From Methanosarcinales archaeon (GTDB lineage Archaea > Halobacteriota > Methanosarcinia > Methanosarcinales > Methanogasteraceae): DNA of 16,433 nucleotides. Where the stretch lies: contig JAUWCK010000008.1 in the NCBI GenBank assembly GCA_030609345.1, positions 1-16,433 of the forward strand. Reading direction: 5' to 3'. The notes below the pieces were generated by a model. That model saw only the letters and a program-made list of their open reading frames with translations, ran no database searches and was not told where the DNA came from. Positions within the stretch are counted from its first letter, which is position 1. Each line of letters opens with the position of its first letter. The translations under genes were made by a program, and so were the position numbers. Of the stretch, positions 2,206 to 15,516 are shown one piece after another.

Positions 2206-3056
2206 ACCGGACTCCCCGAATACTTCATAGAGAGCATGGCAAGGAAGATGATGTTTACAAACGGCAGCACAAAGTAGACGAATACGTTGAAGAGATCCCG
2301 CGGCTCAAAGATTCCCATATCTATGCCGAGCGCGCCGCAGACCACGATACTGAGGACTGCAAGCACAACGCTCATCACAACGCCGCCGAGATACCCCTCG
2401 CCGTAAACAGCAAGCGAATCCACAAACTCCTTCTGGACCAGTCTCTGCATCGTCATCAGGTCCCTCGATTTAATCTCAAGATAATCCCTAAACCCGCTCC
2501 CTGAGTGTATGATATTTGCAAGATCGATGCAGATGACCCGGAACGTCTCAGATGGCGTATTCTGTATCAGGTCGCTCATGGCTGTTACCGCATCCTCGCC
2601 AAGGATATCGACCCGGTATATGACCTTCCCAAACTCCTTTGATATGTGACCGTACTCCTCGATGCTGATTCTCCTGACCACATCAATCGGCGACGTGCCC
2701 GCGCTTGCAAGCACCGACATGTACCCGAGCATGTATGGAAGCTCCTGCTCGATGTTCATCTTCTTGGCAGATATCTTGTTGTACAGCACGAACGGGAATC
2801 CGCCGAGCGTGAGCCCGAAAGCGAGTATGGAGAGGACTGTGACATAGACCATATCACCCCGAAATAGGATGGTAGATGAAACGAACATCACAGCTCCTGC
2901 AATGAGAGCGGTAATACCTGCAAGCGAGACGAACATCCCGGGCGTCATCTCGGTATCAGACTGGTACAGCATCTTTGCCACATCATCCCGCGACGTTTCA
3001 TCGATGTACCGCCCGAAATGGTAACAGAACACCTTGTACCGTTCTGCGAACTTCAC
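2202..3056 (-). CDS. Type II/IV secretion membrane platform protein (T2SSF/TadB-like)
   Basis: This 284-residue protein has predicted membrane segments near 40-64, 69-92, 222-244 and 254-277, with a cytoplasmic helical T2SSF domain in between (about 103-215, including ELPYMLGYMSVLASAGTSP and a later SGSGFRDYLE). The ELPYML...LASAG-(T/L)-(S/P) pattern is characteristic of archaeal FlaJ/TadC-type platform proteins. Together with the next gene it would supply the two T2SSF domains that in FlaJ/ArlJ sit on one chain, like the TadB-TadC pair of bacterial Tad pili. The start is GTG at 3054-3056, overlapping the ATPase stop as GTGA, and the stop overlaps the next ATG as ATGA. This tight coupling supports one assembly complex of ATPase plus two platform subunits in the cytoplasmic membrane. 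Confidence 0.82.
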   Translation of the reverse strand: MKFAERYKVFCYHFGRYIDETSRDDVAKMLYQSDTEMTPGMFVSLAGITALIAGAVMFVSSTILFRGDMVYVTVLSILAFGLTLGGFPFVLYNKISAKKMNIEQELPYMLGYMSVLASAGTSPIDVVRRISIEEYGHISKEFGKVIYRVDILGEDAVTAMSDLIQNTPSETFRVICIDLANIIHSGSGFRDYLEIKSRDLMTMQRLVQKEFVDSLAVYGEGYLGGVVMSVVLAVLSIVVCGALGIDMGIFEPRDLFNVFVYFVLPFVNIIFLAMLSMKYSGSPV

Positions 3057-4984
3057 GCCATCTTCTCCATCATCGCATCCTTATCCCTTGAATACGTTCT
3101 TATAGCATTTACAACGCGTTCATAGTCGGTAATGTCATTATTTGCAAGGTAATCCAGCAGTTCTGCCCGGTCATTCAATTCATTTATGAGATCTCCCTCC
3201 GGTACCCCGAATTCCTCTCTTATCCCTGTAAATAGGGCGTAACTTCCGGAGTGGGTGAATGTGTCAGAGACCGGCTCCCATTTGTAGACCGGGTTTGTGA
3301 TCAGGTCCCCGCGGTCAGGGTCGATCTCGATGATCTCAACGATGCCCGACGCCCGCCTGATGTAATGCTCGCCCTTCTTCACCATCGAATTGAAGATGAT
3401 GTTGTCCACACTCGAAAAGAGACTTCTCGGAACGTTCATCGGGTTTGATTCGACCCTTGAGAGGAGTTCTTTCATCGATCCCGCATGGATCGTGCCGAGA
3501 CACGGATGCCCGACCGAGATCGCCTGGAAGAGCGTGAAGGCTTCGCTTCCCCGCACCTCGCCGACCACGATGTACTCAGGGCGCTGCCTGAGTGCTGCCG
3601 TGAGCAGGTCATAGAGTTCGATGTCGCCTGCTGCCCCGCCTTTGCCGGATCCGTTCCCTGACGCTTTTGAGAGGGCTGCTTCGCCTCCGAATCCGGATCT
3701 TGTGATCGATTGTGTCCAGTTCGGATGCAGCAGGTTTAACTCTGCGGTATCCTCGATCGAGACGATCTTGTGTTCCGGGCGTATGAATGCGCAGAGCGCG
3801 TTTAAGGTCGTGGTCTTCCCGGATGCGGTTCCGCCGGCTGCCAGCACCGAGCGTTTGTATTCAAGGATGATCCAGAGGTATGCAAGCTGTTTCGAATCAA
3901 AGGTTCCGTACTTGATCAGATCGACCGGGGATACCGGATTTGACCTGAACCGCCTGATCGTGAAGGTTGAGCCTTTTTTTGTGACCTCCCGCCCGAGTGT
4001 GATGTTTATGCGGCTCCCGTCTGCAAGCGTTGCATCCCGTATCGGCTGGAGCACAGAGATATGCCTGCCAGCAGTTTGCGCGATCTTCATCACGAAGTTG
4101 TTCAGTTCCACCTCCTCGAAGGTGACCTCGGTACGTATCGAGCCGTATATCCGGTGGTTGACGTAGATCTGGGAATTCGGTCCGTTGCAGGTGATATCCT
4201 CGATATACGGGTCTTTCATCAGGACGTCGATCTTCCCGTACCCGATGTACTTCTTCAGGAGATGGTAGAACATCTTCTCCTTCTGGAAGTAATCCAGATT
4301 CAGGAGGTATATGCTGATGATCATCGAAAACCGGTCTTTTAAATATTCTTCTCTGTCTTTATCTCCGATTATCACGATTTCGGAGTGGATCATCTTCTCA
4401 AACGCGTTTTCGATGATATTTAAGTACCTCAACTCACCCTCGCTCAGCAGAGGTTCAACTGTATGATAGACAAGCTCTTCGCCCTCGAAACGGACATTCA
4501 CGTACTGAAACGGTGGATCTACCGCGTAAGTGACATCGACCTCCGAGAGCGGAACCCCGATAACCGGAGCCGACACCTCACCCAGTTCGAAGCCAAGAGT
4601 CCTTACGGATTTGCTTTTTGGCGTTAGATACCGCTTGATTCGCTTCCGTATGTCATCTGTCCCGATCCTGTCGATCTCCGCGAACGATGGTATCCGTTTA
4701 AGCGATCGTTTAAATCTACCTGGCGGCTTTGAATGTTTCGCAGGTTTCACAGGTTCCGCAGGATCGTCTCCCGCTTGATCGGCAGGGACCCGGCTCTTCC
4801 GCCTCAGACTGAACCTGGATCTCTTCTTTTTCGCGGCAGTTTCGGGTGCTGCTTGCTCCCCGGATGGGGCAGGTTCCGCCAGTTCCATGATGGTCTCGTG
4901 AGCGGGCGTTTCATCTTGCGGTTCTGCAGGTTCAGGGGGTACGCGTTTTCTGCGCAGTATTTTTGTAAGCTTGAATTTAACCAA
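3053..4984 (-). CDS. Type IV pilus/type II secretion assembly ATPase (GspE/CpaF/FlaI family)
   Basis: The 643-residue hexameric-ATPase-type protein has Walker A GGTASGKTT (384-392), the Asp box SIEDTAEL (409-416), Walker B YIVVGEVRG (471-479, E476) and the His box TIHAGS (498-503). The N-terminal domain shows IGYGKIDVLMKDPYIEDITC (247-266), as in archaeal GspE2/FlaI proteins. It powers assembly or secretion of pilin-like subunits together with the two platform proteins that follow. The start is TTG at 4982-4984: GGAGG lies 7 bases before it and no in-frame ATG precedes the conserved part. The first ~95 residues are basic and P/E/A-rich, probably disordered, and partly duplicated in the short ORF just upstream. 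A Gly/Ser-rich insert (431-454) lies between the Asp box and Walker B. The gene overlaps its upstream neighbour by 8 bases and the downstream one by 4. Confidence 0.92.
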   Translation of the reverse strand: MVKFKLTKILRRKRVPPEPAEPQDETPAHETIMELAEPAPSGEQAAPETAAKKKRSRFSLRRKSRVPADQAGDDPAEPVKPAKHSKPPGRFKRSLKRIPSFAEIDRIGTDDIRKRIKRYLTPKSKSVRTLGFELGEVSAPVIGVPLSEVDVTYAVDPPFQYVNVRFEGEELVYHTVEPLLSEGELRYLNIIENAFEKMIHSEIVIIGDKDREEYLKDRFSMIISIYLLNLDYFQKEKMFYHLLKKYIGYGKIDVLMKDPYIEDITCNGPNSQIYVNHRIYGSIRTEVTFEEVELNNFVMKIAQTAGRHISVLQPIRDATLADGSRINITLGREVTKKGSTFTIRRFRSNPVSPVDLIKYGTFDSKQLAYLWIILEYKRSVLAAGGTASGKTTTLNALCAFIRPEHKIVSIEDTAELNLLHPNWTQSITRSGFGGEAALSKASGNGSGKGGAAGDIELYDLLTAALRQRPEYIVVGEVRGSEAFTLFQAISVGHPCLGTIHAGSMKELLSRVESNPMNVPRSLFSSVDNIIFNSMVKKGEHYIRRASGIVEIIEIDPDRGDLITNPVYKWEPVSDTFTHSGSYALFTGIREEFGVPEGDLINELNDRAELLDYLANNDITDYERVVNAIRTYSRDKDAMMEKMA

Positions 4985-5288
4985 TCCGACTCCTCCATAG
5001 CATTATTCGCTGGAACATCTGTTGTAATCTCCCTGGTGGCTTTGCAGAACCGTTTCCGGTCCGACCGAATGCTTCCATGAATGCCTGTTCAAATTTCTCG
5101 CGGGATTTTGCAGGATCGTCTCCTGCTTGATTGAGGGGATTTTTGATTATCTTCTGGAATGGGGTTTGGAATCTTCTTTGCCATAACCCAACCATCGGAA
5201 GGGATTCGGAAAACCAATGGTCGAGAGATGCCGCCCCTCTCCGCTTCAGTCCGAACCCGAATTTAACCAATCCGACTCCTCCATAGCA
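4973..5288. repeat. Exact 30-bp direct repeat, copies 286 bp apart
   Basis: Positions 4973-5002 and 5259-5288 are identical. Each copy covers the codons for LWRSRIG-stop, the ribosome site GGAGG and a TTG-VKF start. The flanks on both sides diverge, so these are the best preserved ends of an older tandem duplication whose bodies share only patches (see the short ORF at 4977-5270). Confidence 0.9.
4977..5270 (-). CDS. Short ORF made by tandem duplication of the pstA end and ATPase start
   Basis: This 97-codon frame starts at TTG 5268-5270 with the same GGAGG-7-base-TTG context as the ATPase and begins VKFGFGLKRRG, like VKFKLTK and FSLRRKS of the ATPase. It shares QAGDDPA (residues 48-54; 70-76 in the ATPase) and KPPGR (77-81; 86-90), then ends in LWRSRIG, the same tail as PstA. 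It therefore consists of a divergent copy of the ATPase N-terminal region running into a second copy of the pstA 3' end, read in the pstA frame because the repeat period (286 bases) is not a multiple of three. Spacing between the shared motifs differs by whole codons, so the frame stayed open. It overlaps pstA by 8 bases and the ATPase by 8. It may be a translated remnant; no function can be assigned. Confidence 0.5.
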   Translation of the reverse strand: MVKFGFGLKRRGAASLDHWFSESLPMVGLWQRRFQTPFQKIIKNPLNQAGDDPAKSREKFEQAFMEAFGRTGNGSAKPPGRLQQMFQRIMLWRSRIG

Positions 5289-6156
5289 GCAGTCGCGTTG
5301 CCGCATTGATCAGCATCACGATCACGATCAGGACAAAGGCGGCTGCGAACCCGTTCGATGCAGGGATGAGATGTGGGAACTCAAATGACCGGTACACCGT
5401 GATCGGAAGCGCTGCGGCAAGATCCTGGAACGGATAAAACTTAAGTCCAAATAAGAACCCTTCACGCGGGAGCACCTTGAATTCAGGCAGGAACTGGGTG
5501 TAGCCTGCGGTCAGGATCACCACAGCAGACTCCTCTGCCGCCCGCCCGATCCCGAGAACCATGCCTGTGAGTATTCCTGTGAGCGCGAAAGGTATCGTTA
5601 TGCGGCGCACCGTGTCCCATTTCGATGCGCCGAGCGCGTAGCTTGCCTCCTCAAGTTCTGTCGGGACGGTATCTATCGCACCCTCCGCCGCACGCTCAAT
5701 CACCGGCAGTATCAGGATTGTGAGCGCTATCGTTCCTGCGATGAGCGAGAACCCGCCTGTTATGAACTTCATGTAGTAGACAAGGAATAAAAGCCCGAAG
5801 ATGCCGAGAACAATAGAGGGCGTGCCTGCAAGCACATCGAGCATGAATCCGAATGTACGCACAAGGGTTCCGGGTTTTGCATACCTCTTGAGATATATCG
5901 CAGTCCCGACCGCAAGCGGTGTTGCGAGCGCGGTTGAGAGGAGTGAGAGCAGGAGTGTTCCCGCGATTGCGTTTGCGATCCCGCCGCCAAGACCAGGGAC
6001 TTTGGATTCCGGAGTGATTATGAAGTAGAGGCTGAGACTGGGGAGCGCTTCGAGCGTGATCCGTCCGAGGATTCCGATTAGTGCGAGGAGGGTGATTGCT
6101 GCTGCGATGTACGAGATCGCTTTGAAGGTGTGTCCTTCGAGTGTTCGTTTGTTCAT
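5263..6156 (-). CDS. pstA: Phosphate ABC transporter permease PstA
   Basis: The 297-residue protein is a full-length PstA-type permease of the high-affinity phosphate importer, working as a heterodimer with PstC in the cytoplasmic membrane. It has about six hydrophobic segments, the family stretch GTPSIVLGIFGLLFLV (about 112-127), and the ABC-permease EAA loop EEASYALGASKWDTVRRITI (about 170-189) that docks on the ATPase. The start ATG at 6154-6156 directly precedes the hydrophobic N-terminus; no clear ribosome site is seen. It lies 157 bases behind pstC, with an inverted-repeat element in the gap. The expected pstB ATPase gene does not follow; instead there is the duplicated ORF and the secretion ATPase. 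The last residues (LWRSRIG) recur at the end of that short ORF. Confidence 0.93.
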   Translation of the reverse strand: MNKRTLEGHTFKAISYIAAAITLLALIGILGRITLEALPSLSLYFIITPESKVPGLGGGIANAIAGTLLLSLLSTALATPLAVGTAIYLKRYAKPGTLVRTFGFMLDVLAGTPSIVLGIFGLLFLVYYMKFITGGFSLIAGTIALTILILPVIERAAEGAIDTVPTELEEASYALGASKWDTVRRITIPFALTGILTGMVLGIGRAAEESAVVILTAGYTQFLPEFKVLPREGFLFGLKFYPFQDLAAALPITVYRSFEFPHLIPASNGFAAAFVLIVIVMLINAATRLLLWRSRIG

Positions 6157-6313: not shown

Positions 6314-7225
6314 TCATAAGTTTCCCCCGATCTTCCTTGCAGCAGCCACAAAGATGATTTCCATCGCAAAGAGAACCGCAGCGATCCCGAAGAGCGCGCT
6401 CCTTGGCTCATCCATCGCACAGTAATAGCCAATGTCGTTTAAGATCTTTGAGGTCATCGCATACCCGGTATCCAGAACCGATGACGGGATATGCTGGGAA
6501 TTTCCGAGTAGCATCACAATTGCCATCGTCTCGCCCATCGCACGCATCATCCCGAGAATCGTTGCTGCAAGGATTCCGCCTGATGCTGTCGGCAGCACAA
6601 CCTTCCGTATCGTCTCCCAGTGGGTTGCTCCGAGCGCAAACGATGCTTCCTCATACTCAAACGGTACCGCACGCATCGCATCCTCTGATAGCGCGATTAT
6701 CGTTGGGAGGATCATCACCGCAAGGATTGTTGACGCTAAGAGGACGCCTGATCCGCTGTTCGGGGAGGGGTCACTGAAGAACGGGATGAACAATCCAAGC
6801 GTACCGCTTAAGAACGGGTCGATGTGATCCTGGAATATATTTTCGAGAACGAAAAGCCCGAAGATGCCGTAGACGACAGATGGGATTCCGACAAGGAGTT
6901 CGACCATCGGGCGCATGATTCGCGCCACGGGGGCAGGCGCAAACTCGGAGAGGAATATCGCTGTAAAGACGCTCACCGGAACTGCAAGCAGGAGGGTTAC
7001 ACCGGTCATCGCAAGCGTTCCGATGATAAAAATCCTGATGCCGTAGACCTGATCGGTATAACTCCATTTTGTTCCTGTGATAAAGCCAATGCCTTGGCTT
7101 TCAAAGACAGGGAGCGCGGTATGAAAGATGAATGCGATAAAAAATATGGTGATTGCTGCTGTTGCGAGAACACAGGTTAGAAGGAGCAGATGCGGTAACT
7201 TTGACCGGAGTTCGTTTAGGTTCAT
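6314..7225 (-). CDS. pstC: Phosphate ABC transporter permease PstC
   Basis: The PstC-type permease pairs with PstA to form the phosphate channel. Visible family features are GIPSVVYGIFGLFVLE, the EAA loop EEASFALGATHWETIRKVVL, and the run GGILAATILGMMRAMGETMA typical of PstC. I place the start at ATG 7223-7225 (MNLNELRSKLP, 303 residues). The open frame extends back to 7336, but that extension has no hydrophobic or conserved character, and it runs through the pstS stop codon and the stem-loop behind it. No good ribosome site is visible at either candidate; 7253-7255 (MAQITHY) is the alternative. The predicted start lies 55 bases after the pstS stop. Expression is probably lower than pstS because of the terminator-like hairpin in between. 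Confidence 0.93.
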   Translation of the reverse strand: MNLNELRSKLPHLLLLTCVLATAAITIFFIAFIFHTALPVFESQGIGFITGTKWSYTDQVYGIRIFIIGTLAMTGVTLLLAVPVSVFTAIFLSEFAPAPVARIMRPMVELLVGIPSVVYGIFGLFVLENIFQDHIDPFLSGTLGLFIPFFSDPSPNSGSGVLLASTILAVMILPTIIALSEDAMRAVPFEYEEASFALGATHWETIRKVVLPTASGGILAATILGMMRAMGETMAIVMLLGNSQHIPSSVLDTGYAMTSKILNDIGYYCAMDEPRSALFGIAAVLFAMEIIFVAAARKIGGNL

Positions 7226-7229
7226 CTTT

Positions 7230-7271
7230 AAAAAATAATGGGTGATTTGTGCCATGATCAGGCACAAATCA
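7230..7271 (-). terminator. Stem-loop and T-run between pstS and pstC
   Basis: On the minus strand TGATTTGTGCC (7271-7261) pairs perfectly over 11 bp with GGCACAAATCA (7253-7243) across a 7-base loop, and a T6 run (7235-7230) follows. The position right behind the pstS stop fits partial termination or 3'-end protection that raises pstS mRNA over pstC and pstA. Confidence 0.75.
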
Positions 7272-7280
7272 GGGGGGGTC

Positions 7281-8300
7281 TCACACAATCTCGGTGTATG
7301 CGAAGTATCCACACGTTCCGAAGTGGTCTGTTGCACCAGGGGACTGTGCGTAGGTGATGAACGCCTTCACCATCGGGTTTGGCTCGCCGTTTGTCATGTA
7401 GTTCAGCGGGCGGGTCAGACCGGGTATGTCATTCACTTTGCCAGTTGGGTATTTGTCGTCGTTGTTTTCCTTGATTGCCGCCTTGAGGTTCTTCTTGGTT
7501 ATGTCTCCGGCAAGGTAGGTGGTTCCTGAACGATTCGTATCAACGATACCGAGTATCTGAACACCATCCTCACCATCTGCAAATCCAAAGTCAACGAAGC
7601 CCATTGAAGCTGCGTCACCCTTCACCGCCGCAAGCACACCGGCATTGCCTATTGCGCCACCTATGTCTGCATGGAAGGTGTCGTTGTCAAGCCAGTCCGC
7701 GAAGGTGTCCTCAGTGCCTGATGCGTCAGATCGCTGGTATGCCTTGGTTATAGGGGTAGCTGTGGCCAAGGTTGCTCCTGTGAAGTCGTTGTTCGTGTAT
7801 GCAGCTATTACATGCTCTCTGTCGACCTCACCCCCCGTCACAGCACTGTTCGCGATCAAAACGACCGCACTGCCGCCGACCGGGTAGACCACCATGTCCG
7901 GGTAGTCGCTTTCTTCCCCAGACTTCATGTCTCTGGATGCCGCGCCGATGTCAACGATGCCCAGTCCGGCTGATGACACGCCTGCGCCTGATCCGCCGCC
8001 CTGCACTGTGATCTTGACGCCCGCATGGTCATCCATGTACGCTTCTGCGAGTAACTCTGATACCGGCTGCACGGTTGTGCTGCCTGCGACCAGAATTTCG
8101 GTCGAGGATGCTGATGTAAGATCCTCGGTGTTCGATTGATCGGATACATCCGATGAGAACGTTCCCATGATCGTTCCCACAGCCGCAGCACCTGTAATTG
8201 CCACGACGACGAGGACGAGCGTTGCCACGATCGGCGACACCGCACGAGTGTCCTCCCACATTCCTTTAAACAGGTCCTTAATCCTTGTTCCTATGTTCAT
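7281..8300 (-). CDS. pstS: Phosphate-binding protein PstS with an archaeal type IV pilin N-terminus
   Basis: The mature part is a PstS-type phosphate-binding protein: AGSTTVQPVSELLAEAY, QGGGSGAG and DIGAASRDMKSGE are the loops that grip phosphate in this family, and GFVDFGFA with the later GLTRPLNYMTNG fits the second lobe. The start is ATG 8298-8300, with AAAGGAGG ending 9 bases upstream; the frame is open further back but has no ribosome site there. The N-terminus is not a Sec or lipoprotein signal. A charged leader (NIGTRIKDLFKGMWEDTRA) is followed by VSPIVATLVLVVVAITGAAA, the form of archaeal type IV pilins (PF07790-like), with expected prepilin-peptidase cleavage after RA (residue 20). 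The subunit should therefore be exported, cut, and either held in the membrane by the hydrophobic helix or built into a filament. It heads the pst operon; 339 residues in all. Confidence 0.92.
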   Translation of the reverse strand: MNIGTRIKDLFKGMWEDTRAVSPIVATLVLVVVAITGAAAVGTIMGTFSSDVSDQSNTEDLTSASSTEILVAGSTTVQPVSELLAEAYMDDHAGVKITVQGGGSGAGVSSAGLGIVDIGAASRDMKSGEESDYPDMVVYPVGGSAVVLIANSAVTGGEVDREHVIAAYTNNDFTGATLATATPITKAYQRSDASGTEDTFADWLDNDTFHADIGGAIGNAGVLAAVKGDAASMGFVDFGFADGEDGVQILGIVDTNRSGTTYLAGDITKKNLKAAIKENNDDKYPTGKVNDIPGLTRPLNYMTNGEPNPMVKAFITYAQSPGATDHFGTCGYFAYTEIV

Positions 8301-8360: not shown

Positions 8361-8450
8361 ATCATATTAGAGCGACTCTTTTCCGGATCAGACCCCCGAG
8401 ACTCCCCGGTTGTCTACCAGCGCGCTCTGATGATATGATTGTAACTGCAT

Positions 8451-8520
8451 CTATATGAACTTTGTACAATGGATATATGTATGCGCGAAATACCTATAGT
8501 TAACATTGGAATCTATATAG
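8451..8520 (-). promoter_or_regulatory. pstS promoter with shared Pho-like control element
   Basis: Reading down the minus strand, the 29-bp element at 8520-8492 (CTATATAGATTC, a variable centre, AACTATAGGT) is followed by TTGTACAA at 8469-8462 and a TATA-like TTCATATAG at 8459-8451. Both the sequence and the spacing match the promoter of the phosphatase operon at 14697-14628. The element lies upstream of the TATA box, the place where an archaeal activator would bind. The transcript start is expected near 8430, giving a leader of about 130 bases. Confidence 0.7.
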
Positions 8521-8709
8521 ATGAACAAACACGCACCAGCAGGTAAAAACGTGATGCAGCGGTGGCATGGTGCCAATAACTGTATCCATGGTAACAGAAT
8601 CCGTTACTCCAGATGAAAAAGAAAAGGGCTACTCAGAATCAACTCATAAACGTTCGGAACAACCACAACTTACCCAAGCATATTCGCAAATCCGACCAGA
8701 GAATATATT

Positions 8710-9161
8710 TCATTGCTTGTCGGGATTTTGTCTTCCGATATGATCGTTTATCAGGGATATAAATTCATAAAAATCGCCAAGATTCTCTGATACTATATTA
8801 AATGCGAGATTGTCATCAAGTTTCCCATATCGATGAACTATGATGTTTCTAAACCCTTTCATGGAGCCCAATTTCTCTTTCATCTCTTCAGGCAGTATCT
8901 TATTCCGGATCAGGTTGTCCACGATATCTTCATCGTTGCCTGGAATCCCAAGGTTGTAGTCCGCGTTTAGAACTGCGCAGATATCAAAAACGTCCTCTAT
9001 ACAAAATTCCAGTCTTTTATATATCCCAATCTTTTATATATTCCATCTTTGATTATTCCTAATGATAAAAATTCTTCAAAGTCATCTGGCAAATACTCTT
9101 CTATCATGCCCAAGCTTTCCTCTATCTCCTTTATTTTTGTTTTTATTAGGCTGATCCTCAT
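8710..9161 (-). pseudogene. HEPN-domain (DUF86/HepT-like) gene broken by a 17-bp tandem duplication
   Basis: The 5' part starts at ATG 9159-9161 (MRISLIKTKIKEIEES) and runs to DGIYKRL, then a frame shift leads to a TAG a few codons later. The original frame resumes as EFCIEDVFDICAVLNADYN and continues to the stop at 8710-8712. Joined, the parts give a DUF86-type HEPN protein with the conserved DGIYKRLEF...IEDV stretch and the catalytic RNIIVHRY motif (R-x4-H). The break coincides exactly with two 17-bp near-copies at 9008-9041; removing one copy restores a single frame. HEPN proteins of the HepT family are RNases controlled by the partner MNT enzyme, whose stop overlaps this ATG by 4 bases. 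The toxin is thus probably inactive, unless the duplication is an assembly error or is bypassed by slippage. Confidence 0.8.
9008..9041. repeat. 17-bp tandem duplication inside the HEPN gene
   Basis: Units at 9008-9024 and 9025-9041 agree in 15 of 17 bases (both contain TCTTTTATATAT). The extra 17 bases shift the reading frame of the HEPN gene. Each unit is very AT-rich, as expected for slippage. Confidence 0.85.
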
Positions 9162-9556
9162 GTAATACACTTCTCCCCGATGTAATCATAATATCTGTGT
9201 TTAAATGAATTGAAATCCTTTATTGTCTGACGTGCGATGTCATATAAGAAGTTTCGGTCTTTGCAGTATGCCACATCCCCTTTCAGAACATCTATCCTCA
9301 CATACAGTGGAAGTTGTTGGAAAATTTTGATGTCATAGATGTCATCAAAAAGACTGGAGATTACTTTAAACCTATATCGAGATGCGCAATCGTCGTCGTT
9401 GGTGTCATAATATATTGCCAGATCGATGTCTGAGTCTTCAGTCATCATGCCTCGCACAGATGAACCATATTGGATAATAAATTTAACCTTCTCAAAATCA
9501 TCCAGCGAGGTGATCTTTTCAATGGCTTTCCTCAATTTGGAATCGAGTGAGTTCAT
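9158..9556 (-). CDS. MNT-type nucleotidyltransferase antitoxin (MntA-like)
   Basis: The protein (132 residues from ATG 9554-9556) has the minimal nucleotidyltransferase signature GSSVRGMMTEDSDIDLAIYY at about residues 29-48, that is G-S-x9-(S)-D-x-D, with the two aspartates for metal and nucleotide binding. In MNT/HEPN systems the MNT partner modifies the HEPN toxin with AMP units and so silences it. I prefer the ATG at 9556 because GGAG lies 6 bases before it; a GTG at 9571 would add five residues but place that ribosome site inside the gene. The stop overlaps the HEPN start as ATGA, so the pair was translated as a unit. The HEPN partner is frameshifted, which leaves this enzyme without its normal target here. 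Confidence 0.85.
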   Translation of the reverse strand: MNSLDSKLRKAIEKITSLDDFEKVKFIIQYGSSVRGMMTEDSDIDLAIYYDTNDDDCASRYRFKVISSLFDDIYDIKIFQQLPLYVRIDVLKGDVAYCKDRNFLYDIARQTIKDFNSFKHRYYDYIGEKCIT

Positions 9557-9610
9557 AGTTTTCTCCGGCACGATTTGATTGAAATGTAAGCACTATCTAA
9601 AGATCCAGCG

Positions 9611-9625
9611 ATATTTAAACTTTCC
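9611..9625 (-). promoter_or_regulatory. Probable promoter of the MNT/HEPN pair
   Basis: The minus strand carries GGAAAGTTTAAATAT (9625-9611), a purine-rich BRE-like stretch joined to a TATA box. A start of transcription near 9588 would leave a leader of about 30 bases before the MNT start codon. This suggests the pair is transcribed separately from the surface-protein operon. Confidence 0.5.
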
Positions 9626-9670
9626 ACACACACTTCCGAGATCATCCGGCAAATCGTGACGTACATACTT

Positions 9671-9694
9671 ACCACAGAGACGGAAGTCGCGGAG
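9671..9694. repeat. Single arm of the CGCAGAG/CGCGGAG repeat family
   Basis: ACCACAGAGACGGAAGTCGCGGAG lies between the surface-protein gene and the MNT promoter and resembles one arm of the inverted repeat between pstC and pstA. It has no facing arm here. Confidence 0.4.
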
Positions 9695-9734
9695 ATTTTT
9701 GCATAATCCGGAATCTGAGTCCTTTTGCGTCTGT

Positions 9735-11774
9735 TCACGTCCCCGGCGAAACCGGGGGACCGCCCGTCCGCAACAGTACGAACGCCAGCAAGAAGCCTGA
9801 AACCGCAACTATGATCGCGATCAATGTGAGCGAGGTATCCGCAATGGTAGATGCCAATTTGCCCACGGTCTCAACAACAGAACCTGCCCACTCCATGCCC
9901 GCCCTGAGCTGGTGCGGGAGTCTGTCGGTTATGCCGGAGAGTTGCGGGGATGTATGCAGTACTGTTTGATTTGTCTGGTTGCCATCTAACCGGTCCGGCA
10001 AAACCTGCTGCGATGTTTTGGACGCGGTTGGGTTCTGGGCTGGTGTCGGTGTCGGTACCGTGGTCTCATTGACACCCTCCTCCCCTGACCCATTATCCGG
10101 CGTCACCCAGCCACCTGCTGACGGATCCCAGACCTGCACCACCTCGGCACCAGACTCCCAGAACGAGGAGCGAACCACGCCTTCGTAGTAGTTTCGAGCC
10201 CTGAACCAGACCTCAGCGTACGGAAGATCCAGTTCATCGAAACGGTCAGGACGTATCAGGTAGGACGCCTCAAGCGCCGTTCCCGGCGGCAGAAGAACGC
10301 CCTCTACTGCTATACGGTGGGAATCATCTACCTTACAGAGATCAAGATCCCATTCAGAAAGCGGCAGTCCGCCGCCAGCGATTCCCTCCTCTGCGCTCTC
10401 CTCAATATAGCCCGCGCCAGCAGGCACGGTGTCTGTGAGGTTGATATATGCAGCGCGGTCACCATCGTTTCGCAGATTCAGGGTTACCTTGTATGTTCCG
10501 TCGCCTTCCGATTCTGCGACCGTTTTGGTCAGATTGATGTGGGGTCCGTGAACCGTGATCGTAACGCCACTCGATTCATATAAAAAATCCTTTCCATAGA
10601 AATCCGCCTCAACAGACGGCGCATCGAAGGTGTACGTGCCCGGCTTTGTCGGGAAGAGCTTGTACCCTATAGAATATGGAGTCTCCTCAGATACGCACGC
10701 TGGCGATCCTTTTGTATAGGTCTTGGCGACTCTTAAGCCATCCGGGATAAGGGAATCCGTGATATTGAGATTGCGGACAGAATAGAAACCGACGTTGTAA
10801 ACGCGGAGTTCCACGGTACTCCACTCACTCACGTTGTATATCAGCGCCTCTGGCATACATGCGACCAGCTCACGCAGACTGTACTTATTCGATCTCACGA
10901 GATTGCACGGGCTCATACTGATCTCGTCATAACAGACCGATTTTACCACCCGGATCTCAGGGTCGGTGCAGGTGAGAGTCAGGGAATTGTTTGCCTCATG
11001 CTGCCCGTCCTTGATGTCGAATCCTTTAGCATAAGCCGATATACTGTAATTGATCTCGTAAGGCGAGGTTATTCCATCCCACGCTGGAGCAATAACCGTA
11101 AAATTGATCGATTCTTTAGCATCTTTCTCCATGCATCCTAAATTTTTGTATATGGTCTGATCATGAAACTCTAAGCCCTTGTAACCCTTCAATTCCAGTT
11201 CCCCGATCTCAACAGTTAATTTGACAGTCTCTATCCATGCATCCCCTGTATTCCTGACATCGATCGTGATCGTCTTCTCTTTTTCCGGAGCATACTGATC
11301 AGAAGATACGTGAATCTCATCGAAATCCTCGGATGTCGCATCGATGTTGATATCAAGTTCAGGCAATCCTCTGCGATAGAATTTGAGTTGTGCTGATGGA
11401 GTTTTATGCGAATCTGTGGTTATACCGGTCAGTTCCACTTTTATCTCGGAATCCCAGTCGAAACAACGATCATCTTCCTGCCGGTTAAGATTCAGGATCG
11501 CTTTCCTCACCTCCCCATCCTTCTCGATCGATATGGCTGATGCGTTCAGACTGACATCAAAATCGTCAGCCCGCAGGGTGTACACCTCACCGCTCTCCTC
11601 ACCTATAACGAGTTCATAAGTCCTGCCCCATGCGATCTTCGCGCTGCCTGAGCTCACCCATTCCACATCGGTATCCAGATCGTCATTTAAGCATTCATTC
11701 GCGGTGGCGAGTGCTGGTGTCAGCAGCAGAGACGAGAGGACGATGAGGACGATGAGGGCGATCTTTCCTGTCAT
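9735..11774 (-). CDS. Large secreted surface protein with CARDB/DUF11-like repeats and C-terminal membrane anchor
   Basis: The 679-residue protein begins with a Sec-type signal (GKIALIVLIVLSSLLLTPALA, about 3-23) and ends with a membrane helix (about 649-669) followed by a short tail, so it is anchored with its bulk outside. The body consists of beta-sandwich-like units. A CARDB-like unit (about 155-250) has TITIDVRNTGDAWIETVKL. Two DUF11/COG1361-like units follow, one around 305-400 (DSLIPDGLRVAKTYTKGSPA) and one around 410-510 (LRNDGDRAAYINLTDTVPAG). A Ser/Thr/Pro-rich linker (about 555-600) precedes the anchor. Many N-x-S/T sites suggest glycosylation. Such proteins in methanogen relatives are cell-surface or S-layer-associated. 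Its ATG overlaps the stop of the small Ig-like gene as ATGA. The exact role is unknown; it may hold or present the phosphatase. Confidence 0.75.
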   Translation of the reverse strand: MTGKIALIVLIVLSSLLLTPALATANECLNDDLDTDVEWVSSGSAKIAWGRTYELVIGEESGEVYTLRADDFDVSLNASAISIEKDGEVRKAILNLNRQEDDRCFDWDSEIKVELTGITTDSHKTPSAQLKFYRRGLPELDINIDATSEDFDEIHVSSDQYAPEKEKTITIDVRNTGDAWIETVKLTVEIGELELKGYKGLEFHDQTIYKNLGCMEKDAKESINFTVIAPAWDGITSPYEINYSISAYAKGFDIKDGQHEANNSLTLTCTDPEIRVVKSVCYDEISMSPCNLVRSNKYSLRELVACMPEALIYNVSEWSTVELRVYNVGFYSVRNLNITDSLIPDGLRVAKTYTKGSPACVSEETPYSIGYKLFPTKPGTYTFDAPSVEADFYGKDFLYESSGVTITVHGPHINLTKTVAESEGDGTYKVTLNLRNDGDRAAYINLTDTVPAGAGYIEESAEEGIAGGGLPLSEWDLDLCKVDDSHRIAVEGVLLPPGTALEASYLIRPDRFDELDLPYAEVWFRARNYYEGVVRSSFWESGAEVVQVWDPSAGGWVTPDNGSGEEGVNETTVPTPTPAQNPTASKTSQQVLPDRLDGNQTNQTVLHTSPQLSGITDRLPHQLRAGMEWAGSVVETVGKLASTIADTSLTLIAIIVAVSGFLLAFVLLRTGGPPVSPGT
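9739..9760 (-). other. GC-rich hairpin over the end of the surface-protein gene
   Basis: GTCCCC/GGGGAC plus GG/CC pair across TTTCG with one bulged C, immediately before the TGA at 9737-9735. No T-run follows, so it is not a standard terminator; it may only reflect the codons used or protect the 3' end of the mRNA. Confidence 0.35.
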
Positions 11775-12274
11775 TTAAATCTTCTGACATAAATAAGGAG
11801 TATGAGCATTGCGCATACGCAACAGATGATGGCGATTCCGATAGCCATCAATGGAGGCGATTTCTCCTCCACAGAAAATTCTACAGGTATCCTGACAGAC
11901 GCTCCGATACCAAGACCTGTTGACGCACCCGGAAAACCTGTGATAAGAAGGCTTCCTGAATGATCCCCCACCTCAAAGTCAGATGGGATAGCCATGGTAA
12001 CATTGATCAATCTGCTCTCCTTCGGATTCAATGCGAATTCAGAAGCAGATAGTTCGGTTATATCCTCAAATGTCTCTGCCGCGACAACGATCCTCTCAAC
12101 CTCATCGCCTGTGTTGATGACGTAGAGACTCTTTGCTGATCCATCGCCCGTCTCCAGAACTCCGTAATCGATTCTGCCAGGAGATGCGCCCACCCCTAAT
12201 GCAGATGCGGTCTGTACGTGCGTCGCAATCACGAGAAGAGCGATTGCCGCCAGCATAAATGCTTTTTTATTCAT
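11771..12274 (-). CDS. Small exported Ig-like protein with C-terminal membrane anchor
   Basis: From ATG 12272-12274 the product has 167 residues. AGGAGG lies 8 bases before that codon, whereas an upstream ATG at 12278-12280 is only 2 bases from it. A signal peptide (about 1-26, ending THVQTASA) precedes a beta-sandwich-like domain (LGVGASPGRIDYGVLETGDG, then LYVINTGDEVERIVV). The strand pattern resembles the NEW3/alpha-galactosidase-associated and MSP-like Ig folds common in archaeal surface proteins. A membrane helix (about 139-160) and a basic tail YVRRFK close the protein. It sits 32 bases behind the phosphatase gene, past a terminator-like hairpin, and overlaps the next gene by 4 bases. 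A structural or anchoring role for the phosphatase is plausible but inferred only from position. Confidence 0.65.
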   Translation of the reverse strand: MNKKAFMLAAIALLVIATHVQTASALGVGASPGRIDYGVLETGDGSAKSLYVINTGDEVERIVVAAETFEDITELSASEFALNPKESRLINVTMAIPSDFEVGDHSGSLLITGFPGASTGLGIGASVRIPVEFSVEEKSPPLMAIGIAIICCVCAMLILLIYVRRFK

Positions 12275-12292
12275 TATCATTTCCTCCTGTGT

Positions 12293-12319
12293 AAAAAAAG
12301 AGGGGATCATATCCCCTCT
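12293..12319 (-). terminator. Stem-loop with T7 run at the end of the phosphatase gene
   Basis: On the minus strand AGAGGGGAT (12319-12311) and ATCCCCTCT (12307-12299) form a perfect 9-bp stem with a 3-base loop that lies in the phosphatase stop codon, followed directly by seven T (12299-12293). It has the form of an intrinsic terminator and should reduce read-through into the two downstream surface-protein genes. Confidence 0.8.
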
Positions 12320-14520
12320 GCCACGAATAGCACCGTTCCATCATACTCTCCGCCAGCCCACTCGGGAACCTCAAGCGACGCCGCGACATCCTCTGCGTAT
12401 TCGAAGTCGGTCACATCGGCGGGTATCCCAACAGAAAAACCATCCACAAAAGCACCATTCAGTCTGATCGCTTCGGTGTAGAAGTCGTTTGGATCACCTC
12501 CAATTTTCGCGGTCACAACAACATCATGGGTGCCAGTGTTCGCAATCCTGATCTGCGATGTAGCCGAACTGAGTCCGGCTCCAACCATTCCGAAGTCAAG
12601 CGCAGAAGTCTCGACTGTGACCAAGATTGCGGGTACCACCTCTGCAGAAAGTTCGGTTGTGCTCGTATCGCCAGCAGGCGTTCCTTCTCGAAGCACGCAC
12701 TCATCCACGACCTCGCCCGAGTCACTTATCGCCTTTAGGGCTACTTCTCCTCCATCAACACTGATCATGCAGTAGTGCTTGGACGGATAGAAGGATTCGA
12801 CGTCACCGGACCACGGTGTGTCCTGCTGCGCATAAAACGGCGCACCAGCCCCGCCAGTAATGATCTGCCAGACCGGGTTTGTGAAATTCGGATTCGTTGA
12901 TCCGTCGAGGTACACAGGTGTCTCATCGTCGACGCTCATCCTGTTGTAGTTGTGCTCGTCGCCAAAGAATACTGCTACAACCTTGCCATTCTGGCTGATC
13001 GCCTCCCAGAGTTCATCCCTGCGCTCGATCACGTGCGTCCGGTTGAGCGGGTTTCCATAGTAATCCTCGTTTTCAGAGGACTCTCCTCCATTATACCACT
13101 GTGCATCATGCAGATGCCCCCCGTTCGGGAATGCGGGCTCGTGCGCGAACATAAAGATGTGTTCGATCGTTGAATCGCCCGCTGCATCATCAAGTACGTC
13201 CTTGATCCACGCAAGCTGGTTGTCCATCACATATCCCTCGAGGTTGCCTCCGAAGTCCTCAGGATGGCTGCACCACCAGTAGTTCGTGTTAAATGCAATG
13301 ACTCTCGTATTCCCGTAGTCAAAGTAGTAGACGTTCTCCGCGTAACTCGGAGCGGTTGTGTTTTCAGGATCCGGGGAACCACCAGCCGGATTCACAAACT
13401 CCTCGGCAAAGATCGTCTCAGCACTCTTATTGACGCCATCGTCCTGCTTATCAAACTCGATACCGTAACTGCTTCCGTCATCATAGACATCCACCAGAGA
13501 CTCATGGTTGCCCATAACCTCGTATATCGGGATGTAGCATCCGACCTGTTCTGTGGCGTCCTTCCATGCCCCAAGCTGTCTATGATAGTCGTCCATGCTT
13601 GTTGTGTAGCCATTGACGAGATCTCCGCTGAAGACGACAAAGTCTGCGCCGTTCTGGTATGCATCGATCGTGAACCGGGCGAGCTTGTGGTAGTTAACAC
13701 CAGCAAAGCTCCTCTCGCCGCCACCAACGCCAGCTCTTGAGTCTGACATTATCGCAAACTCAAACTCCGGGCTTGCAGGTTCAGTTGTGAAGCGGTATGT
13801 CTTGATATCACCCGCACCATCGACGAGCACATCATACTCGTATTCCGTACCCAGAGAGAGTCCTGTGATTGATACCTCGTGGCTGGTACCAGACGCCCCA
13901 TCGGTGTATGATCCGCTGTTGATCTCAACCGCGGCGGTTGTGGGCACATCAGTCTTCCATGAGACAACCGCACTATCTATTGTCACAAGATCCACAAAAG
14001 GACCTTCGATTATGCACGGCACAAGATTATAATCCCCATCGACCCTGAACCTGCCATCATAGAATACCGATGTGGCATCTTCCGGGTTGTAGAGTTCGAT
14101 TCTGTAGCAGATCACACCTCCCTCTTCTCCGAAGTTGCAGATGTCATAACGCGCGCCCTCAAACTTCCCGATGTTAATCGTGGCGCTGTGGGATGCGCTC
14201 TCGCCAGTCAGGTCTTCTGTAGTCGATCTTCGATACTGCGGCACCTGTATCTCCTGCTCTGGAACGTAAAGCCCGTAGTATACCTTCGCTCCCGGTGTTG
14301 CAAGCAACGTATCGAACTGTAGCGTTGCTTCCTTCGCACCGGCGTCGACCGTCACACCGAGATCACCCACCAGAAGATAATCAGGCGTAGCGTCCTTCTG
14401 CGGCAGTGCCGGGTATATATGATCATGCCCCAGATTGCCGGCTTGAGCGCAGACTGACGATGCGAGTATTGCCATCACCAGAATGGCGATCAAGCCATTT
14501 TTCATATATGTTCTGTTCAT
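12307..14520 (-). CDS. Secreted purple-acid-phosphatase-like metallophosphoesterase
   Basis: From ATG 14518-14520 (GGAGG ends 10 bases upstream) the product has 737 residues. A Sec signal (about 1-26, NGLIAILVMAILASSVCAQA) is followed by an N-terminal beta-rich region, a fibronectin-III/PAP-like domain (about 175-248, AVVSWKTDVPTTAAVEI and TGLSLGTEYEYDV), the calcineurin-like domain (about 252-560), and a C-terminal Ig-like domain (about 633-737, LDFGMVGAGLSSATSQIRI). Metal-site motifs are SDSR (D260), SGDLVNG (D300), GNHES (N338, H339), FAHEP (H460) and GDEHNYNR (H523). The usual His after the first Asp is Arg, and the first His of GHxH is Asp. This variant is shared, to my knowledge, by some PAP-like proteins, so activity is likely but the substrate is open. 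Its promoter matches that of pstS, pointing to release of phosphate from organic esters under phosphate limitation. It leads the operon. Confidence 0.85.
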   Translation of the reverse strand: MNRTYMKNGLIAILVMAILASSVCAQAGNLGHDHIYPALPQKDATPDYLLVGDLGVTVDAGAKEATLQFDTLLATPGAKVYYGLYVPEQEIQVPQYRRSTTEDLTGESASHSATINIGKFEGARYDICNFGEEGGVICYRIELYNPEDATSVFYDGRFRVDGDYNLVPCIIEGPFVDLVTIDSAVVSWKTDVPTTAAVEINSGSYTDGASGTSHEVSITGLSLGTEYEYDVLVDGAGDIKTYRFTTEPASPEFEFAIMSDSRAGVGGGERSFAGVNYHKLARFTIDAYQNGADFVVFSGDLVNGYTTSMDDYHRQLGAWKDATEQVGCYIPIYEVMGNHESLVDVYDDGSSYGIEFDKQDDGVNKSAETIFAEEFVNPAGGSPDPENTTAPSYAENVYYFDYGNTRVIAFNTNYWWCSHPEDFGGNLEGYVMDNQLAWIKDVLDDAAGDSTIEHIFMFAHEPAFPNGGHLHDAQWYNGGESSENEDYYGNPLNRTHVIERRDELWEAISQNGKVVAVFFGDEHNYNRMSVDDETPVYLDGSTNPNFTNPVWQIITGGAGAPFYAQQDTPWSGDVESFYPSKHYCMISVDGGEVALKAISDSGEVVDECVLREGTPAGDTSTTELSAEVVPAILVTVETSALDFGMVGAGLSSATSQIRIANTGTHDVVVTAKIGGDPNDFYTEAIRLNGAFVDGFSVGIPADVTDFEYAEDVAASLEVPEWAGGEYDGTVLFVAEGI

Positions 14521-14547
14521 AGTTGTCATTCCTCCATGGTTTATGCT

Positions 14548-14602
14548 GGTGATCGATCGCCTGATCAGAAGTCTACAGCAGGGAGACAGCGACTCGATCA
14601 CC
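14548..14602 (-). promoter_or_regulatory. Long hairpin in the 5' leader of the phosphatase mRNA
   Basis: The arms 14602-14589 and 14560-14548 (GGTGATCGA-G-TCGC against GCGATCGATCACC) pair over 13 bp with one bulged G. The stem begins within a few bases of the transcript start predicted from the TATA box and ends about 12 bases before the GGAGG ribosome site. It could stabilise the 5' end or control translation. Confidence 0.55.
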
Positions 14603-14627
14603 ACGTTACACGCGTGGGGATGGCTTG

Positions 14628-14697
14628 TTATATAAAATTTGCACAAATGATGTATTTAGGGGTGATTTACCTATAGTTGACACCAGAATCTATATAG
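14628..14697 (-). promoter_or_regulatory. Phosphatase operon promoter with shared Pho-like control element
   Basis: The 29-bp element at 14697-14669 agrees with the one before pstS in 25 of 29 bases (fixed ends CTATATAGATTC and AACTATAGGT, differing mainly in the centre). TTTGTGCAAA follows at 14647-14638 and overlaps into the BRE/TATA box AAATTTTATATAA (14640-14628). The element-to-TATA distance is about the same as at pstS. The transcript start is expected near 14605. Confidence 0.75.
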
Positions 14698-14832
14698 TTA
14701 TCAAGCAATCTCCAGCAGCCACTTCCTCAAGGGTCTGAACCGATCCACAAACTTGTCACTACAGATGAAAAGTTGGTTGAAATATTTTCACTGGTACTGA
14801 ACAATAGCAGCCGCCATCGGGACGTCGATCAC

Positions 14833-15015
14833 TCACGCCTGCATCCGGCGTCTGCGTCTGTACACGACATACACAGTCAGAAGATACGCAAAAAGCGCGA
14901 CAAAGACGAATGGCATGACCGAATCGAATATTATGGATGGCGCGTACCAGCAGGATGTGCAGAATGTATATAGCGACAGTATCGTTGCGACCAGCATACT
15001 GATGACCGTTTTCAT
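14833..15015 (-). CDS. Small two-helix membrane protein of unknown function
   Basis: The 60-residue frame starts at ATG 15013-15015 and encodes an N-terminal hydrophobic helix (about 3-22), a short polar turn (CWYAPSIIFDS) and a second helix (about 33-52), ending in YRRRRRMQA, which should face the cytoplasm. The composition is that of a real membrane protein, and a TATA-like CCTATATAG lies about 45-53 bases before the start. The ribosome site is weak (GAATGAG). It lies on the same strand as the phosphatase operon, 135 bases before its shared promoter element, so it is probably transcribed alone. I recognise no family. Confidence 0.5.
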   Translation of the reverse strand: MKTVISMLVATILSLYTFCTSCWYAPSIIFDSVMPFVFVALFAYLLTVYVVYRRRRRMQA

Positions 15016-15059
15016 GGTTTAGACTCATTCTGATTCTTGATAAGCCTTGCACATAGGAT

Positions 15060-15068
15060 CTATATAGG
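15060..15068 (-). promoter_or_regulatory. TATA-like promoter of the small membrane protein
   Basis: CCTATATAG on the minus strand (15068-15060) lies at a distance that would start the transcript near 15037, about 20 bases before the ATG at 15015. It shares the CTATATAG core with the Pho-like elements but lacks their second half. Confidence 0.4.
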
Positions 15069-15516
15069 AGATCATATCTGCCTGAGAATCTCGTACCCAA
15101 AGACTGCGATCGTGATCGCAACAGAGGGTATGAATTCCTGTAAAAGGTGATTAAATCACGAATGCACACGTTTAGACGACTTCCAACGATCCAGATGAGT
15201 ATGGTATTCCGTTCTCATCACATAACGAACAGCGTGGCGAAGGTATTGCCCTAAGTATTGGTTTATCCGAACTTTAACGACATTAAATAAGCGTAAATAA
15301 ACGTAAATGCCAGAATATATAGCATAATTGATTCACAAATATATCAAGCACTTAATCCGCATCCATTTTTCACAATCATCATAAAACAGATTAAACATAT
15401 TCAATATCCAAATGGAGATTTGAAAAGGTGCAATATTTTTACCATCCGGGAACGATTTCACCAACCAGTCAAAAACACTTCAGCTAACAAAGCCATTATC
15501 AAAGGAGATCGCTACC
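15069..15516. other. Intergenic region upstream of the SulP gene
   Basis: This AT-rich stretch separates the minus-strand genes from the + strand transporter. It holds a 13-base palindrome GTGATTAAATCAC (15147-15159), 10-bp direct repeats TAAATAAGCG/TAAATAAACG followed by a partial third unit (15284-15309), and a TATA candidate GAATATATAG (15313-15322). The last would give a leader of roughly 175 bases to the SulP start. A 28-codon hydrophobic fragment on the minus strand (15072-15155) has no start codon. No RNA gene was recognised. Confidence 0.5.

Follow-up and report, generated by a model that had tools for sequence, protein, structure and literature searches.

A conserved 69-bp sequence as a probable phosphate-linked promoter control element in Methanosarcinales archaea

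A contig from a Methanosarcinales archaeon (assembly GCA_030609345.1, contig JAUWCK010000008.1) raises the question of what a sequence that stands before a phosphate-transport operon, and again before a phosphatase operon, might do there. The window, by which we mean the whole stretch of 16,433 nt that was analysed, had previously been interpreted from its letters alone; this sequence-only reading pointed to a near-identical pair of 29-bp sequences in the same orientation, each upstream of a TATA-like box, and proposed an archaeal Pho regulon operator. Reading the window directly bore out the pair, with 25 of 29 bases identical between 8492-8520 and 14669-14697, and a 27-bp core was matched twice in the window with up to 3 mismatches versus not once in 200 dinucleotide shuffles. 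The claim was, however, an understatement: the 29-bp match is the upstream part of a repeat of 69 nt with 77% identity (8452-8520 versus 14629-14697). Counted in register in blocks of 20, identical positions numbered 4 just upstream, then 16, 15, 15 and 9 across the element, then 4; outside the repeat, identity falls to about chance on both sides, with one later block (8381-8400) at 10 of 20. The copies lie 6.2 kb apart, their ends are mostly sharp, and the genes behind both are on the minus strand.

The first operon runs pstS-pstC-pstA and then into GspE- and GspF-like genes; the second encodes a metallophosphatase (secreted), a small protein and a DUF11 protein:

7281-8300, minus strand: PstS-like binding protein with an archaeal type IV pilin N-terminus (PF12849, PBP_like_2, above cutoff; TIGR02537 22.6 bits against a cutoff of 20)
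6314-7336, minus strand: pstC, coordinates of the ORF, translation probably starting further inside (TIGR02138 298 bits, above cutoff)
5263-6156, minus strand: pstA (TIGR00974 246 bits, above cutoff)
3053-4984, minus strand: GspE/FlaI-like secretion ATPase adjoining pstA (PF00437; synteny)
2202-3056, minus strand: GspF-like membrane protein (PF00482)
856-2205, minus strand: second GspF-like membrane protein (PF00482)
12307-14529, minus strand: secreted calcineurin/purple-acid-like phosphatase (PF00149 above cutoff, PF16656 just below cutoff)
11771-12310, minus strand: small protein of the phosphatase operon (no Pfam family)
9735-11774, minus strand: DUF11 protein of the phosphatase operon (PF01345 above cutoff)

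The start codon of pstS is at 8300, and that of the phosphatase was placed by eye near 14520-14529. Because the NCBIfam PstS models scored below their cutoffs for the 7281-8300 protein (TIGR02136, 89 against 206.6), its name rests also on the adjacent pstC and pstA. The window's pst operon showed no pstB; in G001 and other genomes pstB lies in a second cluster with phoU. In G001 this pstB-phoU-AbrB-PhoU cluster is found on the far side of a SulP-type transporter, and it may thus lie just past the window's end. Continuation of the pilin-type pstS operon into GspE and GspF was seen at many loci of the order and in ANME-1 (noted at L090, L094, L098, L113, L117, L121, L123 and L131), and among seven Methanomicrobiales loci GspE was recognised in five and GspF in three. 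The pilin-type PstS and the GspE/GspF proteins may together form a pilus-like phosphate-capture system. The bindosome of Sulfolobus, which is sugar-binding, likewise has a substrate-binding protein with a pilin signal beside a GspE-type ATPase and GspF; however, the window's ATPase scores 183 bits against a cutoff of 1000 for BasE (NCBIfam), which places it outside that family, and the binding protein here is PstS-like rather than sugar-binding.

Read in the direction of the genes, the element has the layout CTATATAG-N13-CTATAGG...TANATA...TTGTRCAA...TATATA. In a gap-free alignment of 18 sequences from the family of this archaeon, CTATATAG occupies columns 2-9, CTATAGG columns 23-29, TANATA columns 41-46, TTGTRCAA columns 53-60 and TATATA or CATATA columns 65-70. 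The corresponding features of the window are:

8452-8520, minus strand: whole element of the pstS promoter, a conserved control region of about 69 bp including the TATA box (repeat comparison, family alignment, order-wide matches)
8513-8520, minus strand: pstS block 1, CTATATAG, invariant in 18 of 18 aligned family sequences
8493-8499, minus strand: pstS block 2, CTATAGG, starting 21 bp after block 1 (family alignment)
8476-8481, minus strand: pstS block 3, TANATA, here TACATA (family alignment, 68-mer matches)
8462-8469, minus strand: pstS block 4, TTGTRCAA, here TTGTACAA, at the expected BRE position (family alignment, search for block 4 with TATA)
8452-8457, minus strand: putative pstS TATA box, CATATA (family alignment), transcription probably starting about 20 nt downstream
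14629-14697, minus strand: second whole copy, phosphatase promoter (repeat comparison, family alignment, order-wide matches)
14690-14697, minus strand: phosphatase block 1, CTATATAG (family alignment)
14670-14676, minus strand: phosphatase block 2, CTATAGG (family alignment)
14653-14658, minus strand: phosphatase block 3, TAAATA (family alignment)
14639-14646, minus strand: phosphatase block 4, TTGTGCAA (family alignment, search for block 4 with TATA)
14629-14634, minus strand: putative phosphatase TATA box, TATATA (family alignment)

The last block (TATATA or CATATA) was taken for the TATA box, and on the minus strand the claimed position upstream of a TATA-like box holds for both copies (8452-8457 and 14629-14634). 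For Methanolobus psychrophilus, the available text of one study describes BRE and TATA elements predicted about 19-22 nt from mapped starts (PMC5378194); at the distance given there, the transcription starts would be expected near 8430 and 14607, past the downstream end of the element. The element would therefore be promoter DNA and not leader RNA. A riboswitch or leader RNA was rejected on the position of the element upstream of the TATA box and on the finding of 0 Rfam matches in the window at gathering scores.

Comparison among relatives indicated which of these features are kept. The pst-type (n = 7) and phosphatase-type (n = 11, one before a DUF11 gene) copies of the family have 34 invariant columns in common and 8 fixed differences. 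Most pstS and phosphatase sites retain the 21-bp spacing from block 1 to block 2; the DUF11 sites of Methanolobus, as we call genus g17 in this analysis, have a poor block 2. Palindromic half-sites had been suggested as the key feature, but this symmetry is not conserved, because all 15 distinct pstS sites of Methanolobus have A or G in place of the first C of CTATATAG; that C is retained in some DUF11 sites. Among 56 distinct sites scoring at least 30 bits, the base before TATATAG was C in 30, A in 13, T in 7 and G in 6. Block 4, which the sequence-only reading had not named, is conserved as well, as TTGTRCAA in most family copies and TTGTNNAA in Methanolobus pstS sites.

We then asked which genes follow the motif, a check made on relatives of the archaeon rather than on the window's own genome. 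The 27-bp core, allowing up to 3 mismatches, gave 16 matches in 10 genomes, all of one family, among 119 genomes searched; its reversed control gave 4 matches in the 119 genomes, 2 of them in the family. Of the 16 core matches, six stand before pstS, nine before the 5′ end of a phosphatase gene and one before a DUF11 gene; for two of the nine, G013 (where the contig ends) and G004 (before a rearrangement), the phosphatase was recognised by eye from its opening codons. The nearest relative searched, G001, has exactly two core matches, on one contig, before the phosphatase and before pstS. A 30-column model run on 17 family genomes returned the same 16 matches at E ≤ 4e-7, followed by a truncated phosphatase promoter at E 3e-5, a third site in G003 at E 0.0055 and further matches at E ≥ 0.19. 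The partial R2 match in G009:C14 (E 3e-5) was rejected as a new regulon member, being a truncated copy of the phosphatase promoter. The model scans scored the best first-look candidates per genome (150 and 26), so that weaker sites may be missed.

Relatives elsewhere in the order share the layout. When a 72-column model (R1) was trained only on family sequences, it recovered the layout in other families among 185 genomes, with best E values from 7e-15 to 2e-6; in the five best-match genomes outside the family, the match lay before pstS in G183, G155 and G158, beside the cluster in G050 and after an AbrB-PhoU gene in G179. We also used a gap-free 68-mer consensus with up to 3 mismatches, written with the family, R1-found and Methanolobus sites in view. 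Of 184 order-level genomes, 34 contained this pattern, with 49 matches in all, and 150 had no match; its reversed control gave 0. The matches lie mainly before genes of one function, as expected of a regulon operator: 41 of the 49 are directly before pilin-type pstS (24), second-type pstS (2), phosphatase (8) or DUF11 (7) genes, the DUF11 relatives in Methanolobus carrying their own copy of the element. Some of these targets had not been seen when the pattern was written, namely the second-type pst operons of G184 and G185 and a phosphatase in another family (G041). By this comparison, the proposed reading as an archaeal Pho regulon operator is supported. Behind the remaining eight matches there is no intact recognised phosphate gene:

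G003:16094: protein of 527 aa that resembles a portion of the phosphatase reference (E 6e-55)
G004: 5′ end of the phosphatase gene only
G013: contig end
G050: ORF of 131 aa, no family assigned
G179: nearest ORF 668 bp off, AbrB-PhoU minus its first residues
G155:C13: no ORF listed on the strand
G008:C98 and G016:C218:5406: 3 mismatches each, ORFs that start alike (the one in G008 encodes a beta-propeller protein); shared GTATTAGGACAA signature

Viewed from the gene side, pilin-type pstS (E ≤ 1e-30) occurs in 35 genomes, 25 with a 68-mer match and 10 without, and three of the ten (G149, G112 and G052) show weaker or partial versions of the element. A position-weight scan of the fetched loci gave 62 matches above 30 bits against 0 in the reversed control, a count that is partly circular, since loci were chosen for their matches and some sites are counted twice in overlapping loci, and that is not a count of specificity. 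Two groups of weaker matches fall outside this picture. In genus g18, which we take to be Methanosarcina, recurrent weak R1 matches cover only positions 4-35 or so of the model, without the proximal half, are found between S-layer-like genes, and were rejected as the element; in family f5, weak matches are scattered, some inside or near unrelated genes.

From these comparisons of sequence we consider it likely that the repeat is a shared phosphate-linked promoter control element. It would be a Pho-type control region, a fixed-geometry promoter of about 70 bp through which one regulator could turn on phosphate scavenging by PstSCA uptake, the secreted phosphatase and the DUF11 protein. An activator-like dimer or tetramer would sit on blocks 1 and 2, which are separated by two turns of the helix and lie 36-63 bp upstream of the TATA box; block 4, whose end is 5 bp from the TATA box in the region bound by TFB, might couple the regulator to the basal machinery; and the signal would presumably be low phosphate. 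According to the available text of PMC6864096, both pst operons and phoA of Methanosarcina mazei rise under phosphate starvation, which is a response of a comparable gene set in a relative and not of this promoter. With a defined sequence, a gene list and one candidate protein, the proposal is testable in organisms with genetics. If the switch does respond to phosphate, it could be used to read phosphate stress from the metatranscriptomes of methane-cycling communities.

The candidate protein is an AbrB-PhoU fusion that combines a DNA-binding with a PhoU domain (PF04014, 34.7 bits against a cutoff of 24.7; PF01895, 85.9 bits against 23.5) and falls below the cutoff of the NCBIfam full-length PhoU model. 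Its structural model, built on 4 sequences, has a mean pLDDT of 80, with low confidence for the N-terminal 50 residues; in a fold search it matched PhoU structures over about 200 of 320 residues, and none of the best pdb matches pointed to the AbrB-like N-terminal part. At many loci the gene lies beside a small membrane protein, a DUF11 gene and pst, and in several family members it is instead found with pstB and phoU. AbrB-PhoU was detected at about E 1e-68 or better in 29 of 34 site genomes versus 22 of 150 others, and at a stricter cut of about 1e-75 in 28 of 34 versus 8 of 150, although scores of the group run on without a clean gap and kinship inflates both counts. A weaker association persists when genus g17 (15/1/5/6, p 0.009) or the family (9/1/2/5, p 0.018) is taken by itself. 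The element was not seen before the family's pstB-phoU-AbrB-PhoU cluster, so no autoregulation is visible. On this sequence evidence we tentatively put AbrB-PhoU, whose gene shares the cluster, forward as the most likely binder of the element; its AbrB domain would contact the DNA while its PhoU domain senses the Pst transporter. Taken alone, this step seems to us plausible, if short of probable.

An earlier predicted regulator lends this candidate some weight. It too has an N-terminal DNA-binding domain, a PhoU domain and synteny with pst, and there too the role is a prediction; the protein described here differs in its AbrB fusion and in its clustering with pilin-type pstS, and it is set beside PhoU2 by description only. 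The analogy supports the AbrB-PhoU candidate and proves nothing for the element.

We regard the chances as evenly balanced that the element is a real Pho operator bound by some other protein, such as a winged-helix or ArsR-like factor or a response regulator encoded elsewhere, with AbrB-PhoU only tuning the transporter. Twelve genomes of family f5, presumably Methanoperedens relatives, keep an AbrB-PhoU of the same group and have no site, and five site genomes, in a set where some genomes are incomplete, have the element without AbrB-PhoU (G014, G041, G150, G184 and G185). A weak argument against this alternative is that no DNA-binding protein other than AbrB-PhoU was recognised as recurring nearby, in a comparison of neighbouring ORFs with a chosen reference set only. 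If AbrB-PhoU is indeed the binder, the parts could be joined into a predicted one-protein Pho pathway of methane-cycle archaea, in which it would read the state of Pst and bind the 69-bp promoter directly, with neither kinase nor response regulator. The main product would be a phosphate-binding protein on a pilin tether, with a GspE/GspF machine dedicated to its assembly; the promoter, the regulator and the genes of surface uptake would constitute one Methanosarcinales module, and uptake genes with related CTATA repeats would reach ANME-1 and Methanomicrobiales. As a whole we hold this pathway to be possible and somewhat doubtful.

The sign of the control could also be the reverse of that proposed. 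Archaeal repressors often bind close to the TATA box, as block 4 lies, and the element might thus be a repressor site released at low phosphate; the distal pair of blocks, however, sits at a distance upstream of the TATA box that is typical of activator sites, and we think a repressor rather unlikely. We give still less credence to a promoter that is simply strong and constitutive, with several TATA-like boxes, common to highly expressed genes and without a phosphate switch. Most of the blocks are indeed TATA-rich and one is the putative TATA box itself, but a generic promoter should recur, and this layout is nearly absent elsewhere in the genomes. The pattern TTGTRCAA-N5-ATATA had 12 matches in 12 chosen genomes (10 of them with the 68-mer), 7 at these promoters, against 3 for its control; block 4 with TATA is thus rare there, and not a common promoter element of those genomes. 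Finally, a recent duplication, in which the promoter of one operon was copied to the other and likeness merely reflects ancestry, would suit the shared orientation, the distance of 6.2 kb and the mostly sharp ends, but appears very improbable, as the two types recur as separate conserved groups within the family with their own fixed differences and shared invariant columns, and the layout recurs in other families. These fixed differences point towards each copy grouping with its orthologues; an old promoter copy kept by selection is possible, and would not remove the function.

The control element we favour may be set against known Pho boxes. In bacteria, the Pho box bound by PhoB or PhoP consists of CTGTCAT-type repeats about 11 bp apart, upstream of the core promoters of pst and phosphatase genes. 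The present element resembles it in this placement of repeats; in contrast, inspection of the family alignment by eye found no CTGTCAT-like repeat and a spacing of 21 bp instead of about 11, which sets it apart from that class. Among archaea, Furtwangler et al. reportedly described in 2010 the Pho boxes of two Halobacterium salinarum pst operons. The available text of a further report states that the pst promoters of both operons contain Pho boxes that are essential for upregulation and are described as PhoU binding motifs (PMC6560208). These boxes are cis elements in archaeal pst promoters, as is the element described here; they belong to another archaeal class, and the two are likened by description, without a sequence alignment. 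Unlike the Halobacterium boxes, as far as the available text describes them, the present element also stands before phosphatase and DUF11 genes, runs into the TATA box and has a fixed spacing. As far as the literature was searched, regulation of archaeal phosphate uptake has been little described outside the haloarchaea. In open-access literature, covered by titles and abstract openings with subscription papers outside the scope, no description of the element was found, which is no proof of novelty.

Related repeats may reach beyond the order. Sequences upstream of pilin-type pstS in ANME-1, Methanocellales and Methanomicrobiales contain at least one CTATA word, at varied spacings, L121 being the only locus without such a word. 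Pairs exactly 21 bp apart occur in three of seven Methanomicrobiales upstreams. Across the phylum, a search for the 21-bp pair with a TATA box matched one of 344 genomes, with one match for the control; the single match precedes a gene with a pilin-type pstS N-terminus, as judged by eye. AbrB-PhoU was not seen in the fetched stretches of the seven Methanomicrobiales loci or of the ANME-1 locus. We consider the extension past the order suggestive, a lead and not a result.

Several further observations concern the same loci. A 38-bp repeat with 92% identity (4973-5010 and 5259-5296) lies at the pstA/gspE junction of the window, together with a 109-aa ORF whose start resembles, by eye, that of the gspE ORF in G003; perhaps the repeat is a local duplication of the 5′ end of gspE. 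Between the phosphatase promoter and the SulP-type transporter, positions 14759-15500 contain no convincing gene. Directly before the phosphatase element, at about 14698-14745, we recognised by eye the apparent last codons of an AAA_14/DUF4143 ATPase gene. In G009:C14 and G023:C23 such a gene likewise ends shortly before a phosphatase-type promoter that is truncated or split (L185:1382-2700; L106:4715-6301). The promoter of G023, which belongs to another family, is interrupted by roughly 180 bp with CTCTGGTG repeats on either side, in the manner of a small insertion element. The family of this archaeon also has a second class of promoter, with GTATTAGGACAA before the TATA box (L027:5406, L170:1942 and L030:719); the genes behind it are a beta-propeller ORF in L170, an ORF with the same start in L027 and an ORF without a Pfam family in L030. 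Lastly, G155 has two element-like sites in tandem on one strand (L093:6141-6208 and 6700-6750) with no downstream ORF listed, possibly marking a gene for a small RNA or a small protein.
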